NCBI RefSeq assembly: GCF_023822025.1
Contig: NZ_CP082909.1
Coordinates: forward strand, 4,880,001-4,944,000
Direction: 5' to 3'
DNA: 64,000 bases
Source of the DNA: Endozoicomonas sp. 4G
Lineage (GTDB): Bacteria; Pseudomonadota; Gammaproteobacteria; Pseudomonadales; Endozoicomonadaceae
In this document: positions 33,519 through 41,067 of the stretch, in pieces
How the letters are laid out: every line of letters starts with the position of its first letter
Numbering within the stretch: position 1 is the stretch's first letter
Program-made: the position numbers and the translations under genes
The notes under the pieces: model-generated
Told to the model about the DNA's origin: nothing
The model's database searches: none
Seen by the model: the letters and a program-made list of their open reading frames with translations, nothing else

Positions 33519-33600
33519 GTGAACTACTCGCCCCTAAAGGAGCGAGCTTCCAATACTAAGCAACTACCGGAGTAGTTACCGTTCTTTTCTTTTTTGACGT
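33519..33600 (-). ncRNA. TnpB guide-RNA (reRNA) 3' end and element right end
   Basis: Directly after and overlapping the tnpB 3' end, the minus strand carries gaagctcgctcctttaggg, a hairpin, then gcgagtagttcac. This hairpin-plus-TTCAC layout is what IS605-group right ends look like. The guide would be the 16 or so bases of flank left of 33519. The 5' end of the RNA inside tnpB cannot be fixed by eye. Confidence 0.6.
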
Positions 33601-34938
33601 TTCACTGCGAGCTGCGGAAGAGGGCTTGCCCTTTCCCGACTTACATTTCGCTCCACGTCCTTTAGTTAGCACAGGAATTCCTTTGCCAACCAACTCCGTT
33701 CCAGAGTCCATAAAAAACCTAATTGCTCGTTTCTTGATTACGATGCTGGCGTTTCTGTCAGCGTTGTCAAAGTGTCCACATTGACCGCAAAGAAACAGTT
33801 CTTGTGTCTTGCGGTTGTCGGGGTGAGTGTGACCGCAATCAGCACACTCTTGACTCGTAAAGGGTGCAGGCACTTTGAATACAGCTTTGCCTGCTTTTGC
33901 TGCTTTATATCGGGTATAGGTTTCCAAGAAGTGCCATCCTACGTTGAGAATGGCCTTGTTCAGTCCGGCTTTTTGTTTCGCCTTGTTGGAGATGAACTTT
34001 CCGTTTTGATCTTTTTTTGCTTTTGGCCTGCGAGTCATTTTTGAGGTTTTCAGATCTTCGAAAACAATGACCCTGGCCTTGCTGTCAACCATTTTACGGC
34101 TGGTTTTGTGACAGAAATCTTGCCGAATGTTGGCTACTTTCTTGTGCTGCCTGCTAATCCTGTTCTTTGTTTTCTGACGACGGTTAGAGCCTTTGGTTTG
34201 GCGAGACAAACGACGCTGAAACCTCTTTAGGTATCGCTGGCGCTTATCCATGTTCTTTGTCTGGTTTTCTGTAAAGTCGTAAGGCTTAACGCCAGTATGA
34301 ACAGGTATAACAACACCTCGATCGACGCCGATAACATGCTCTTCCAGCCACTCTTTGGAAGCACCTTTAAGGTATTCCAAATGCTCTTTTTCTGTTGCTG
34401 GTTCTTCTGATCCATCGTCATAACAGAAAGAAACGGAGTACTGACCAGCCTCTTTTCTAATGTAAATGGATTTTGGTTCGTTGAATGGGCGATGAGTTTT
34501 AAACGACAAATAACCAATATTGTTGGTCTTTGTACCAATGAAAAGACGGGTTACACCATCTTCACAGATATCGAACCGGAACACTTCATTGGTGAGATAA
34601 ATGCTGCCCTTGTCGGATTTTGGCTTTTTCTTTGGCTTGCCGCACTGGCCATTGATGTGTTTTTGGTAGGTCTTATACCAGTTGGTAGCCGAGTTTCTGA
34701 TTATCTGACTGGGACAATCGGATAACCAGGGTGATAACTCTTCGCTTTTGAATTGGGCTGCCTTTGTGTCAATAGGGGCATACGCACCTATGGGGCAGTA
34801 TTTTTTTGCGTAAGTGCTGTAATAGCGATGTTCATCACATTTCGCATTCCAGATAAACCGAGCGCAACCCATCCACTGAGACAGAACCAACTTTTGCTGA
34901 TCTGTTGGATTGGCTTTGAGTCGGATACCTTGCAGCAT
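33556..34938 (-). CDS. tnpB: TnpB RNA-guided nuclease (IS605 OrfB)
   Basis: 460 residues from the ATG at 34938 (AGGTT upstream; the ATG at 34968 lacks a ribosome site). The start LQGIRLKANPTDQQK and the catalytic RuvC residues are present: Asp in VIGVDRGV, Glu in VIVFEDLKTS, Asp in NADRNASI. The zinc finger CADCGH...CGQCGH lies between the last two. All key residues are intact, so the nuclease may be active although its tnpA partner is ruined. Confidence 0.93.
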   Translation of the reverse strand: MLQGIRLKANPTDQQKLVLSQWMGCARFIWNAKCDEHRYYSTYAKKYCPIGAYAPIDTKAAQFKSEELSPWLSDCPSQIIRNSATNWYKTYQKHINGQCGKPKKKPKSDKGSIYLTNEVFRFDICEDGVTRLFIGTKTNNIGYLSFKTHRPFNEPKSIYIRKEAGQYSVSFCYDDGSEEPATEKEHLEYLKGASKEWLEEHVIGVDRGVVIPVHTGVKPYDFTENQTKNMDKRQRYLKRFQRRLSRQTKGSNRRQKTKNRISRQHKKVANIRQDFCHKTSRKMVDSKARVIVFEDLKTSKMTRRPKAKKDQNGKFISNKAKQKAGLNKAILNVGWHFLETYTRYKAAKAGKAVFKVPAPFTSQECADCGHTHPDNRKTQELFLCGQCGHFDNADRNASIVIKKRAIRFFMDSGTELVGKGIPVLTKGRGAKCKSGKGKPSSAARSETSKKKRTVTTPVVA

Positions 34939-35008
34939 TACATAACCTGTTGAATTGAATGGCTTCATGCTAGTCTGGCTAGAAATATCTGTCAAATATG
35001 AGGTTTTT

Positions 35009-37673: not shown

Positions 37674-37717
37674 GGTTTCTTCGTCCCGGCGTTCTGCCAC
37701 TGTCGCAAGGTCTTCAA
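37674..37717. repeat. 44-bp fragment of the satellite relB gene
   Basis: These 44 bases are identical to 28931-28974 inside relB of the satellite, in the same orientation. The fragment supplies the stop codon and last bases of the oxidase gene at 37714. It may be a relic of an earlier relB copy or of recombination with the satellite. Confidence 0.85.
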
Positions 37718-38871
37718 AGCGAATAACCAAAAAACTGCTTATTTTCCCTCAGTATTCTCGTGAACAACGCCTCATTCAAAGCGTTATCGGAGCCATCGTT
37801 GTGGTCGATAAAGGTGGCTCCCAGTAACCCTCCTCTTCTGGGCATAAAATAGATATCCGCCTTATCCACAGGGCTGGCACGTTTGGGGGCTCCCGGCGGC
37901 TGGTAGCGAGTGTAAATAATGTAGTCGAGCTTGTTCAGGGGTTGATGAGCCAGCTCAAGCAACAACCCCATGTTGGGGTAAACCCTGTCATCGTGATTCA
38001 GTTTTGCAGCCCCCAGCCCGGAACAGTTAAAAACAACATCGGTTTTAATATCATCGAGACTGCCGATTGTCCCACGAACCACAGGGATATTTCGGGTTCT
38101 GAGTTCACGGTCAAAGGCTGCCATAATGACCGCAGTATCCATAAAGTAAGTCCGGAATTTTTGCATCGGGTAATTCACGCCTGTGGAAAACTTAACCACG
38201 CCCTGCTCAGGTTTGGGTAACAATCCGGCTTCAGCAAAGGGTTCAATACCGGTGTAAGTTTCTAAAGGACCTTCTTCCCCTTCTTTACCCAGACCACTGT
38301 AGACATCAATAAGATGCACCCCTTCATTGATGATGGAATGGGTGCCTTTGTCGACTTTCTGATACCCCTTGAGCGTCTCAATGGCGAGCTGTTCAGCCTC
38401 TTTTTTCTCGGACTTATTTTCTGTTGCCATAGACACCATGGCCAGATACCCCGTTGAGTTCAATGAAGCAATACCGTCGTCTTTCTCAGCCACCACACGA
38501 AGGTTCCGGTAGCCTGCCTGATAAAGCGATAAGGCGACGGCTTTTCCCATACAACCTGCGCCAATGACCGTTACAGAAACCTGGTCGTTTAATTTATGCG
38601 CTCTGGCCCTCTCCTCAAATAAGGCCATGGCTTTGTTTACACTACCCCAGAGCAGCGTCCAGCCGCTGCCGCCATGACCGTATAAATGGACTCTTATTTG
38701 CTCACCGATACGCTCAGCACTGATTTCTGGCAACCCCTTTCGCATGGGACGAAGACAGATAGTTTTGCGATCAATATCGCCGCCCAACACCACTCGCCCC
38801 TGTGCATCAAAATGGGCATCACCCAGCTGAACTGCCTCCAGCTGGTCATAAAAGGGGGCTAAATGGATCAT
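37714..38871 (-). CDS. D-amino-acid-oxidase-like flavoprotein, circularly permuted
   Basis: 385 residues from the ATG at 38871, which overlaps the aminotransferase stop (ATGA). Normal D-amino-acid oxidases begin with the FAD motif and end with the RPxR and HNYGHGGSGW signatures. Here RPMR (41-44) and HLYGHGGSGWTLLWG (62-76) come first, the FAD motif VIGAGCMG (G104, G106, G109) follows, then NCSGLGA near 285. The end (FMPRRGGLLGATF ... FTRILRENKQFF) matches the part that usually precedes RPxR. All pieces are present, in rotated order. It should oxidise an amine next to a carboxylate using O2 or another acceptor; the substrate is unknown but may be the product of its operon. An FAD enzyme lacking the permutation cannot explain this layout. 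Confidence 0.8.
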   Translation of the reverse strand: MIHLAPFYDQLEAVQLGDAHFDAQGRVVLGGDIDRKTICLRPMRKGLPEISAERIGEQIRVHLYGHGGSGWTLLWGSVNKAMALFEERARAHKLNDQVSVTVIGAGCMGKAVALSLYQAGYRNLRVVAEKDDGIASLNSTGYLAMVSMATENKSEKKEAEQLAIETLKGYQKVDKGTHSIINEGVHLIDVYSGLGKEGEEGPLETYTGIEPFAEAGLLPKPEQGVVKFSTGVNYPMQKFRTYFMDTAVIMAAFDRELRTRNIPVVRGTIGSLDDIKTDVVFNCSGLGAAKLNHDDRVYPNMGLLLELAHQPLNKLDYIIYTRYQPPGAPKRASPVDKADIYFMPRRGGLLGATFIDHNDGSDNALNEALFTRILRENKQFFGYSL

Positions 38872-40016
38872 TTGTATAAAACTCCCGCCAACCCATAAGA
38901 AGGCTCTGCCTGTTCGTCCAAAAAGAAACGGGAAACAGACTCTGCTACCCGGCTCACCTGCGCCGCCGTCATTCCCGGAAACACAGGCAAAGAAAGACAA
39001 CGCCGGGACACCTGCTCGGCGACAAAAAGATCCTGTGTTATCGGTAAGCCTCTAAACACTGGCTGCTGATGTAATGGGATCGGATAATACAGGGCGGATG
39101 CAATGCCCTGACTGGCCAGATGCGCTTTCAGTTGATCCCGTTGATCGGTTAACACCGTAAACTGGTGATAAACGTGCCCCTGTCCTGCTGGCAACAGAAC
39201 ATCCAATCCCTGCAGACAGGATCGGTACACTTCTGCTATTTTTTTCCGCTCCTGGTTATAACGTTCAATGTACTTGAGCTTGACTCTGAGCAGCGCCGCC
39301 TGCATTTCATCCAATCGGCTGTTGAAACCCATGCACTCATGTCGGTATTGAATGCTGCTGCCGTGGTTTCTCAATACCTTTAACTGCTCCGCCATGAACT
39401 CCGTCTTTGCAGTAATTAAACCACCATCACCAAAACCACCGAGGTTCTTGCTGGGGAAAAAGCTGAAACAACCAAGATCACCCCAGGTTCCCGTCATTCT
39501 GCCGTTGACAGACGCACCAAAGGACTGGGCACAATCCTCAATCAGCAGCAGGGAATGTTCCTCGCAGAGCCACTGAATTTCCTGAATACGGGCGGGCAAA
39601 CCGAAGAGATGAACCACCAGCACTGCACGAGTGCGGTCAGTCATTGCCTGCTGTATCCGAAGTGGATCCATATTAAACGTCTCCGGCTCTATATCCGCAA
39701 ACACAGGCGTTGCACCTACCCGGACAATGGCTTCAGCGGTGGCAAAAAAAGTAAAAGGCGTGGTAATGACTTCATCACCGGGGCCCAGACCAGCGGCTGA
39801 GAGGGCAAGGATCAGGGCATCGGTGCCATTGCCACAACTGACAGCCTGGTTAGCCTGAAGAAACGCTCCGACTTCCTGTTCAAAAGCAGTGACTTCCTCG
39901 CCCATCAAAAAACGACCGGAGTCCAGCACCCGGCTGGCCGCTGCCCTGAGTTCCTGCTGAATAGGCTGGTGCCAGGCCAGTGTATCCACCATCGGGATCA
40001 TTGCTTTCGAATTCAC
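38868..40016 (-). CDS. DegT/DnrJ/EryC1/StrS-type PLP aminotransferase
   Basis: 382 residues, the usual length. It has the SCGNGTDALILAL motif near residue 60, the EDCAQSFGA motif near 160 and the PLP lysine in FSFFPSKNLGGFGDGG near 190. These enzymes transaminate keto-sugars for surface sugars or antibiotics. It overlaps both neighbours by four bases, so oxidoreductase, aminotransferase and oxidase are made from one mRNA. The combination with a dehydrogenase upstream is typical of 3-amino-sugar synthesis; the oxidase is the unusual third member. Confidence 0.9.
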   Translation of the reverse strand: MNSKAMIPMVDTLAWHQPIQQELRAAASRVLDSGRFLMGEEVTAFEQEVGAFLQANQAVSCGNGTDALILALSAAGLGPGDEVITTPFTFFATAEAIVRVGATPVFADIEPETFNMDPLRIQQAMTDRTRAVLVVHLFGLPARIQEIQWLCEEHSLLLIEDCAQSFGASVNGRMTGTWGDLGCFSFFPSKNLGGFGDGGLITAKTEFMAEQLKVLRNHGSSIQYRHECMGFNSRLDEMQAALLRVKLKYIERYNQERKKIAEVYRSCLQGLDVLLPAGQGHVYHQFTVLTDQRDQLKAHLASQGIASALYYPIPLHQQPVFRGLPITQDLFVAEQVSRRCLSLPVFPGMTAAQVSRVAESVSRFFLDEQAEPSYGLAGVLYK

Positions 40017-40951
40017 TGGACATCTCCCTCGATGATACCGGAAATCCGGGTGGCTAACGCCAGGGCACGATGGCCATCCTCACCGCTGACCCTGGGCTCT
40101 TTTGAGTAACGAACACAGTTGAGGAAGTCTTCTATCTCCCTGCGCAGGGAGTCGCTGTCTTTATAACTCAGTGCATCACACTCAATGGTGGGAATGCCGG
40201 GAAACATCTCACCTTTACCTTTGTAAAAGTGCGACATATTCAGAGACTGAAAATCGATACAAATACACGACTTTTCTTGAAAGATGTGCATTTTTCGCTT
40301 GGCTTTCTGACTGATCCGGCTGGCGGTTACATTAGCGACGCAGCCACCACTGAATGTCAGTCGGGCCTGGGCAATATCCACTGAGTCAGACAGTACCGCT
40401 GTACCGTTGGCAACGACATCCACTAATGGCTTGTTCACCAGGCTCAGAATAATATCCAGATCATGGATCATAAGATCCATAACCACATTGATATCCATGG
40501 AGCGAGGCTTGAATCCAGCCAGCCGGTGAGACTCAATAAAACGGGGCTCCCTCAATAAAGAGCCTACGCCGGAAAGGGCTTCGTTAAAACGCTCCAGACA
40601 ACCCACCTGCAGAACCAGCTCCTGCTCCCTGGCTATCTGAACCAGCTCATGGGCCTCATCCAGACTGGAAGTGATGGGCTTTTCCACCAGTACATGCACA
40701 CCCGCCTTAAGAAAATCTCTGGAAACCTGATGATGGAGAAACGTGGGTACAGCGATACTGACCGCATCCACCCGGCCTAACAGTTGTTGGTAATCAGCAA
40801 AGAATTCTGTGCCACACTCACTGGCAACAACACGACCACTGTCTTCATTGATATCTGCTACGCCAACCAGCTGACACTCAGGCAACATGGCGTATTTATG
40901 GGCGTGAAATTTTCCCAGATATCCGATCCCGACTACTGCGGTTCTGAGCAT
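40013..40951 (-). CDS. Gfo/Idh/MocA-family oxidoreductase
   Basis: 312 residues from ATG 40951. The Rossmann motif VVGIGYLGKFHAHKY lies at the N-terminus, the catalytic EKPI motif near residue 92, and DLMIHDLDIILSL near 165. It likely oxidises a sugar nucleotide hydroxyl to a ketone for the following aminotransferase. The longer frame to 41035 has no ribosome site. It is the first gene of the three-gene operon; stop and next start overlap (ATGA). Confidence 0.88.
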   Translation of the reverse strand: MLRTAVVGIGYLGKFHAHKYAMLPECQLVGVADINEDSGRVVASECGTEFFADYQQLLGRVDAVSIAVPTFLHHQVSRDFLKAGVHVLVEKPITSSLDEAHELVQIAREQELVLQVGCLERFNEALSGVGSLLREPRFIESHRLAGFKPRSMDINVVMDLMIHDLDIILSLVNKPLVDVVANGTAVLSDSVDIAQARLTFSGGCVANVTASRISQKAKRKMHIFQEKSCICIDFQSLNMSHFYKGKGEMFPGIPTIECDALSYKDSDSLRREIEDFLNCVRYSKEPRVSGEDGHRALALATRISGIIEGDVQ

Positions 40952-41067
40952 TGAAAGATTCCATAAGGTTTTGATGTTTCGGCTTTTAAGATAGACGTTA
41001 TTTCGCGCGCTATCCGAACCATCAAGCAGAAACAAAATGGAATTCAGTCCCCCGGATCTGGAGCTGA

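Follow-up and report, generated by a model that had tools for sequence, protein, structure and literature searches.

A probable natural circular permutant of D-amino-acid oxidase in Endozoicomonas and other bacteria

D-amino-acid oxidase (DAAO) is among the best studied flavoenzymes and serves as a biocatalyst. In its usual order, the flavin adenine dinucleotide (FAD) motif is N-terminal, whereas RPxR and the YGHGG signature are C-terminal. Human DAAO (2du8), human D-aspartate oxidase (6rkf) and Rasamsonia DAAO (7ct4) share the FAD motif, NC[ST]G, RPxR and H-x-YGHGG with the protein described here, and we take R283 of human DAAO to be the substrate-carboxylate arginine of RPxR and Y228 to be an active-site tyrosine. 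The protein in question is encoded in a 64,000-nucleotide stretch of Endozoicomonas sp. 4G, a member of a marine genus (contig NZ_CP082909.1, positions 4,880,001 to 4,944,000; hereafter the window), by a minus-strand frame running from an ATG at 38871 to a stop at 37714. The usual motif order is not found in this protein, which is therefore treated as a permuted variant and not as an ordinary member. Its family differs from these three enzymes in chain order, in the export-type N-termini of many members, and in the replacement of the Y228 counterpart in 12 of 34 members. Among the titles and abstract openings listed in searches of an open-access library, with most subscription papers lying outside this scope, we found no description of a permuted DAAO; PMC6957218 mentions permutation for other folds, and no such mention was found in passages of PMC5169069 and PMC4699246 or in PMC9844085.

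The first-pass annotation had described the gene as a circularly permuted DAAO-type protein in which RPMR (residues 41-44) and HLYGHGGSGWTLLWG (62-76) precede the FAD motif VIGAGCMG (102-109). These positions are exact in the translation, with HLYGHGGSGW forming residues 62-71, and the coordinates 37714..38871 were also correct, although the minus strand had been left unstated. Searches of solved structures with phmmer placed query residues 35-90 on residues 281-339, and query residues 277-307 on residues 185-215, of human D-aspartate oxidase; query residues 23-92 were placed on residues 310-379 of Rasamsonia DAAO.

The chain order was examined against an ordinary-order profile of 320 positions, built from five bacterial DAAO-like proteins of Streptomyces (L043 and L046), Streptantibioticus (L082), Mycobacterium (L084) and Tsukamurella (L085). 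Together with a Nocardia protein (L083), these are the nearest ordinary-order relatives tested; they carry the same motifs, but the FAD motif comes first. Trimmed cores of 34 distinct family proteins were scored in native order and after rotation, in which the piece before the FAD strand (residues up to 97 in the window protein) was put last. Without rotation, the best single piece went no further than profile position 259 in any of the 34 cores. After rotation, one piece reached at least position 310 in 26 of them, and no joined match was obtained for the other eight (L020, L037, L039, L041, L042, L044, L086 and L087). The score of the window core rose from 46.3 bits in native order to 82.3 bits in rotated order. 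A single-path local aligner, with gap costs of our own choosing at one setting, was also run on each of the 385 rotations of the window protein. The native order scored 62.8 bits; scores were highest, at 103.3 bits, when the cut followed any of residues 84-95, and formed a second, lower plateau at 81.7 bits when it followed about residues 112-232; six shuffles of the same protein scored 14.0-19.2 bits. For ordinary DAAOs, the best score fell on the native order or right beside it, both for two profile members in the single-path scan and for five proteins that were excluded from the profile one at a time.

Furthermore, a rotated profile of eight family members (A10) matched Rasamsonia DAAO in one piece covering positions 2-341 of 344 (6.1e-46), and human DAAO over positions 2-339 (2.5e-37), whereas a native-order profile of eight members (A2) matched Rasamsonia DAAO in two pieces of swapped order (1.7e-24). 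Note that A2 and A10 hold different sets of eight sequences, so that their scores are no strict pair; the comparison of the 34 cores is strict. Against this stands the HMMER best-domain score of the full 385-residue protein, which was 46.2 in native and rotated order alike. A single-sequence rotated query gave no gain over the native query in phmmer. We attribute the flat full-length score to HMMER cutting the match in two and, more generally, the lack of gain in both programs to local multi-domain scoring being nearly blind to order, which is why trimmed cores, a single-path aligner and a rotated profile were used. As judged from these alignments, the permutation is real and conserved; once the first 97 residues of the window protein are placed last, its broken match to ordinary DAAOs becomes single, collinear and nearly full-length.

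The order RPxR - YGHGG - FAD motif was present in all 34 collected proteins, in line with the shared order for which the first-pass annotation had suggested a homologue search. The collecting pattern itself required this order, so the set is possibly biased; profile searches made without the full-order demand also gave the permuted order, in all 19 other loci at the phylum level and in three order-level loci outside the genus, with L016 counted as a truncated frame. The form of the observation alone would fit an assembly artefact or a fusion of half-genes in one genome, an explanation that we regard as having next to no probability. It is contradicted because independent genomes, comprising several of Endozoicomonas and those of other families and collections, share the order. 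In addition, the gene is under purifying selection (see below), and the window's own genome gave a single match in a search at E 0.001, in which no second half was found elsewhere. Merged half-genes with an extra copy elsewhere, named beforehand as the refuting case, were not observed, as one match each was obtained in G000, G002, G003 and G005 and all 34 proteins share the order.

The sources of the 34 proteins are Endozoicomonas and other Pseudomonadota, a single actinomycete and two contigs of IMG/VR. Of ten Endozoicomonas genomes, own included, six have a complete or nearly complete member and a seventh has a remnant; the matches in the records of E. arenosclerae and Endozoicomonas sp. ISHI1 have 80% and 86% identity. 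Profile scans at 1e-12 matched 7 of 292 genomes at the order level (four of them close Endozoicomonas, own included), 1 of 369 at the class level (own only) and 20 of 398 at the phylum level (own included). Named members from plasmid records belong to Kozakia, Niveispirillum, Rhizobium, Bradyrhizobium and the actinomycete Nonomuraea. Those of Kozakia, Rhizobium and Bradyrhizobium are annotated only as 'FAD-dependent oxidoreductase', perhaps because sequential searches split the match. Phage records held no match to L017, PHROGs none to two proteins, and a viral contig scan with profile A1 no relative; three further viral contig scans returned the same three contigs each time.

We rejected the idea that DAAO-like proteins in Pseudomonadota generally take the permuted form, as ordinary-order DAAOs seem to be present there too. 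With a Streptomyces DAAO as query at 1e-10, 7 of 299 genomes were matched, all with permuted genes at those places, as well as 61 plasmid records, among them 37 from Burkholderia and 10 from Vibrio. The Burkholderia matches listed cover 97% of the Streptomyces protein in one piece, and ordinary order is therefore indicated for them. A candidate from Rubrobacteraceae (L011) was discarded as a chance match within a gene whose sequence is D-aminoacylase-like. Two damaged copies were also seen. In G239, a permuted family gene on the minus strand (L016) has an open frame that ends after 246 residues and is apparently frameshifted or broken. In one Endozoicomonas genome that lacks a complete copy, a family remnant (L007; G006:C1, about 1501-1701) has 71 matched residues in an 80-residue frame and, by eye, adjoins a stretch resembling transfer RNA.

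A tree was built from rotated sequences. One of its branches (83/81) set the 34 proteins and the paralogue L008 apart, the six ordinary-order proteins formed a separate branch (99/96), and three rows of glycine oxidase ThiO served as outgroup (100/100). L083 had been missed by the collecting pattern and is thus outside the five-protein profile and inside the tree; a fourth ThiO row, L104, was likewise missed. The Endozoicomonas branch was long (2.32). The 34 proteins without L008 did not occupy one side of any branch, a grouping seen in 1% of 200 bootstrap trees. The tree is consistent with one origin, short of proof. L008 is a very divergent second permuted paralogue, found in one of the ten Endozoicomonas genomes (G007:C1, minus strand, about 535-1911). 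Its 459-residue frame has YGYGGAG ahead of the FAD motif, its branch is very long (3.51), and its permutation may either be shared with the family or have arisen independently.

Residues that matter in known DAAOs are conserved. R41, which aligns with R283 of human DAAO, is present in 34 of 34 members and R44 in 33; H62, Y64, the GHGG residues and G70 are each invariant, so that the H-x-YGHGG-x-G signature is kept throughout, as are G104, G106 and G109 of the GxGxxG FAD motif. Y341 aligns with Y228 of human DAAO, and tyrosine is found there in 22 of the 34. Pfam DAO (PF01266) matched three stretches of the window protein with 56.3 bits (5.2e-15), above its curated cut-off of 27.9 bits, and matched all 34 members at E values of 0.001 or lower. 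The same Pfam family includes glycine oxidase ThiO and D-amino acid dehydrogenase DadA, which have the Rossmann FAD motif in common with the window protein, but its scores of 35.5 bits for ThiO (TIGR02352) and 11.1 bits for DadA (NF001933) lie far below the respective cut-offs of 250.8 and 383. The protein probably functions as a D-amino-acid oxidase or dehydrogenase. A predicted model of the window protein, made from an alignment of only five rows (A7), had a predicted local distance difference test score of 44.4 and gave no useful fold match; the model of a sibling (L039) was better, still of low confidence, and matched DAAO from the FAD strand onward.

The permuted gene is under purifying selection, with ratios of nonsynonymous to synonymous substitution rates (dN/dS) of about 0.15: those of the window copy were 0.147 to L002 and 0.151 to L003, as against 0.128 between L002 and L003, and synonymous sites were saturated in comparison with L004. 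As for its start, the ATGA overlap that had been taken to fix it does exist in the window, but it does not establish the ancestral start, because relatives carry extra DNA there. Between the aminotransferase gene and the permuted gene, the window lacks about 50 bp that are present in L002, and more in comparison with L003, and this DNA encodes a hydrophobic N-terminal segment. The best mean hydrophobicity over 15 residues was 0.43 for the window protein versus 1.55, 1.23 and 1.60 for L002, L003 and L004. We therefore read the overlap as a derived deletion scar of the window copy. The loss of this segment, after which the N-terminus is no longer hydrophobic, might also mean that the gene is decaying in the window; however, its frame is intact, its dN/dS values are those given above, and GGGAG lies ten bases ahead of the ATG, so that we hold decay to be very unlikely.

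A twin-arginine-like motif was found upstream in 21 of the 34 members, with a lipobox as well in 14, as scored with a crude pattern along the entire in-frame stretch upstream. The six Endozoicomonas proteins are without the twin-arginine-like motif, and L002-L004 have the hydrophobic N-terminal stretch. The motif is also lacking in L086, L087 and L042, where a thiamine-diphosphate enzyme follows the permuted gene; a berberine-bridge-type FAD oxidase lies ahead of the gene at L086, and its counterpart at L087 is annotated as an FAD-binding oxidoreductase. This context suggests a cytoplasmic pathway for these three.

We consider it probable that the family is a natural circular permutant of the DAAO fold, that is, an FAD-binding, D-amino-acid-oxidising enzyme that originated once or a few times and is exported in many members. 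The C-terminal DAAO part, which holds the arginine for the substrate carboxylate and, by the flavin, the GHGG loop, would have been moved ahead of the FAD Rossmann strand via a short linker, with new chain ends opened before RPxR. The folded permuted chain should have the three-dimensional structure of the ordinary enzyme. It should bind FAD and convert a D-amino acid, or a closely related D-alpha-amino acid, by oxidation to the imino or keto acid. The sequence data show the motif order and the completeness of the chain, its conservation, the selection on it and the retained active-site residues; flavin binding, the fold of the window protein, its substrate and electron acceptor and the export of members are inferred. 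The arrangement, having presumably arisen once or very few times, would mark a bacterial family in which many members look exported by the twin-arginine route, often as lipoproteins, and pass electrons perhaps to a c-type cytochrome or oxygen. A bolder version, which we hold as possible but doubtful, is that one ancient permutation gave rise to a family of folded DAAOs exported by this route, many of them lipoproteins, acting as periplasmic D-amino-acid dehydrogenases that feed c-type cytochromes. A reason for the permutation to be favoured may have been that the signal peptide is then attached to a surface segment and not to the buried first Rossmann strand.

With regard to the gene neighbourhood, the order Gfo/Idh/MocA - DegT - permuted gene, with SfsA upstream, was seen in four of four close genomes including the window (Table 1). 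This order, the resemblance of the pair to nucleotide-sugar enzymes in its best, though weak, NCBIfam matches, and the long Endozoicomonas branch would also fit a permuted DAAO fold that, in Endozoicomonas, acts in the adjacent sugar pathway and no longer on D-amino acids. Its substrate would then be an amino-sugar nucleotide, or a 2-hydroxy or 2-amino acid by-product of the dehydrogenase-aminotransferase pair. However, at L071 the permuted gene and DegT lie about 1.1 kb apart, with an opposite open frame between them, and around the two more distant Endozoicomonas members (L072 and L073) there was no DegT match and one weak Gfo-like match each. Nucleotide-type sugars of such pathways are made in the cytoplasm, and the hydrophobic segment of L002-L004 could take the protein out of it; moreover, R41 and Y341 are retained. 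We thus regard a role in the sugar pathway as rather unlikely. At L071, the stretch ends within SfsA, and another frame lies between SfsA and Gfo.

Outside the genus, a cytochrome c gene directly follows the permuted gene in Kozakia, with hydrolases, a prolyl-oligopeptidase-type protein and a TonB receptor nearby, and a thiamine-diphosphate enzyme follows it in Rhizobium, Bradyrhizobium and Nonomuraea. Over 26 loci with 104 neighbours, no general partner gene was found among the first 25 of 118 neighbour families, with crude gene calling; thiamine-diphosphate-enzyme domains occurred in 4 and coenzyme A transferase in 3. Elsewhere in the window, the minus-strand frame at 33556-34995 is presumably TnpB-like (IS200/IS605 type), as judged from its zinc-finger-like C-terminus.

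Table 1. Features of the permuted gene and its neighbours, in window coordinates
Feature	Position	Strand	Basis
Putative permuted DAAO-like flavoenzyme, 385 residues	37714..38871	-	Open reading frame and translation; Pfam DAO; permutation tests
Residues 1-97, corresponding to the C-terminal part of ordinary DAAOs (RPxR, HxYGHGGSGW, last helix)	38581..38871	-	phmmer
RPMR, residues 41-44; R41 aligned with R283 of human DAAO	38740..38751	-	Rotated-profile alignment
HLYGHGGSGWTLLWG, residues 62-76	38644..38688	-	Translation; family conservation
Residues 98-385, corresponding to the N-terminal and middle DAAO part (FAD Rossmann motif to pre-RPxR segment)	37717..38580	-	Rotation scan
FAD motif VIGAGCMG, residues 102-109	38545..38568	-	Translation; family conservation
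NCSG, residues 282-285, mid-protein DAAO motif	38017..38028	-	Aligned within 185-215 of 6rkf
ATGA overlap of aminotransferase stop and permuted-gene ATG, read as deletion scar	38868..38871	-	DNA alignment
DegT/DnrJ/EryC1 aminotransferase (best NCBIfam PseC, below its cut-off)	38868..40016	-	Pfam/NCBIfam; order kept
Gfo/Idh/MocA oxidoreductase (best NCBIfam UDP-GlcNAc 3-dehydrogenase, below cut-off); start uncertain	40013..41035	-	Pfam/NCBIfam; order kept

A natural permutant of DAAO in several bacterial families would mean that this fold tolerates new chain ends, and its members would offer ready-made alternative scaffolds. A family that has ordinary-order relatives also makes viable intermediates of the permutation testable. 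If the exported members do oxidise D-amino acids, they would constitute a further site of D-amino-acid turnover outside the cytoplasm, near peptidoglycan and hosts.
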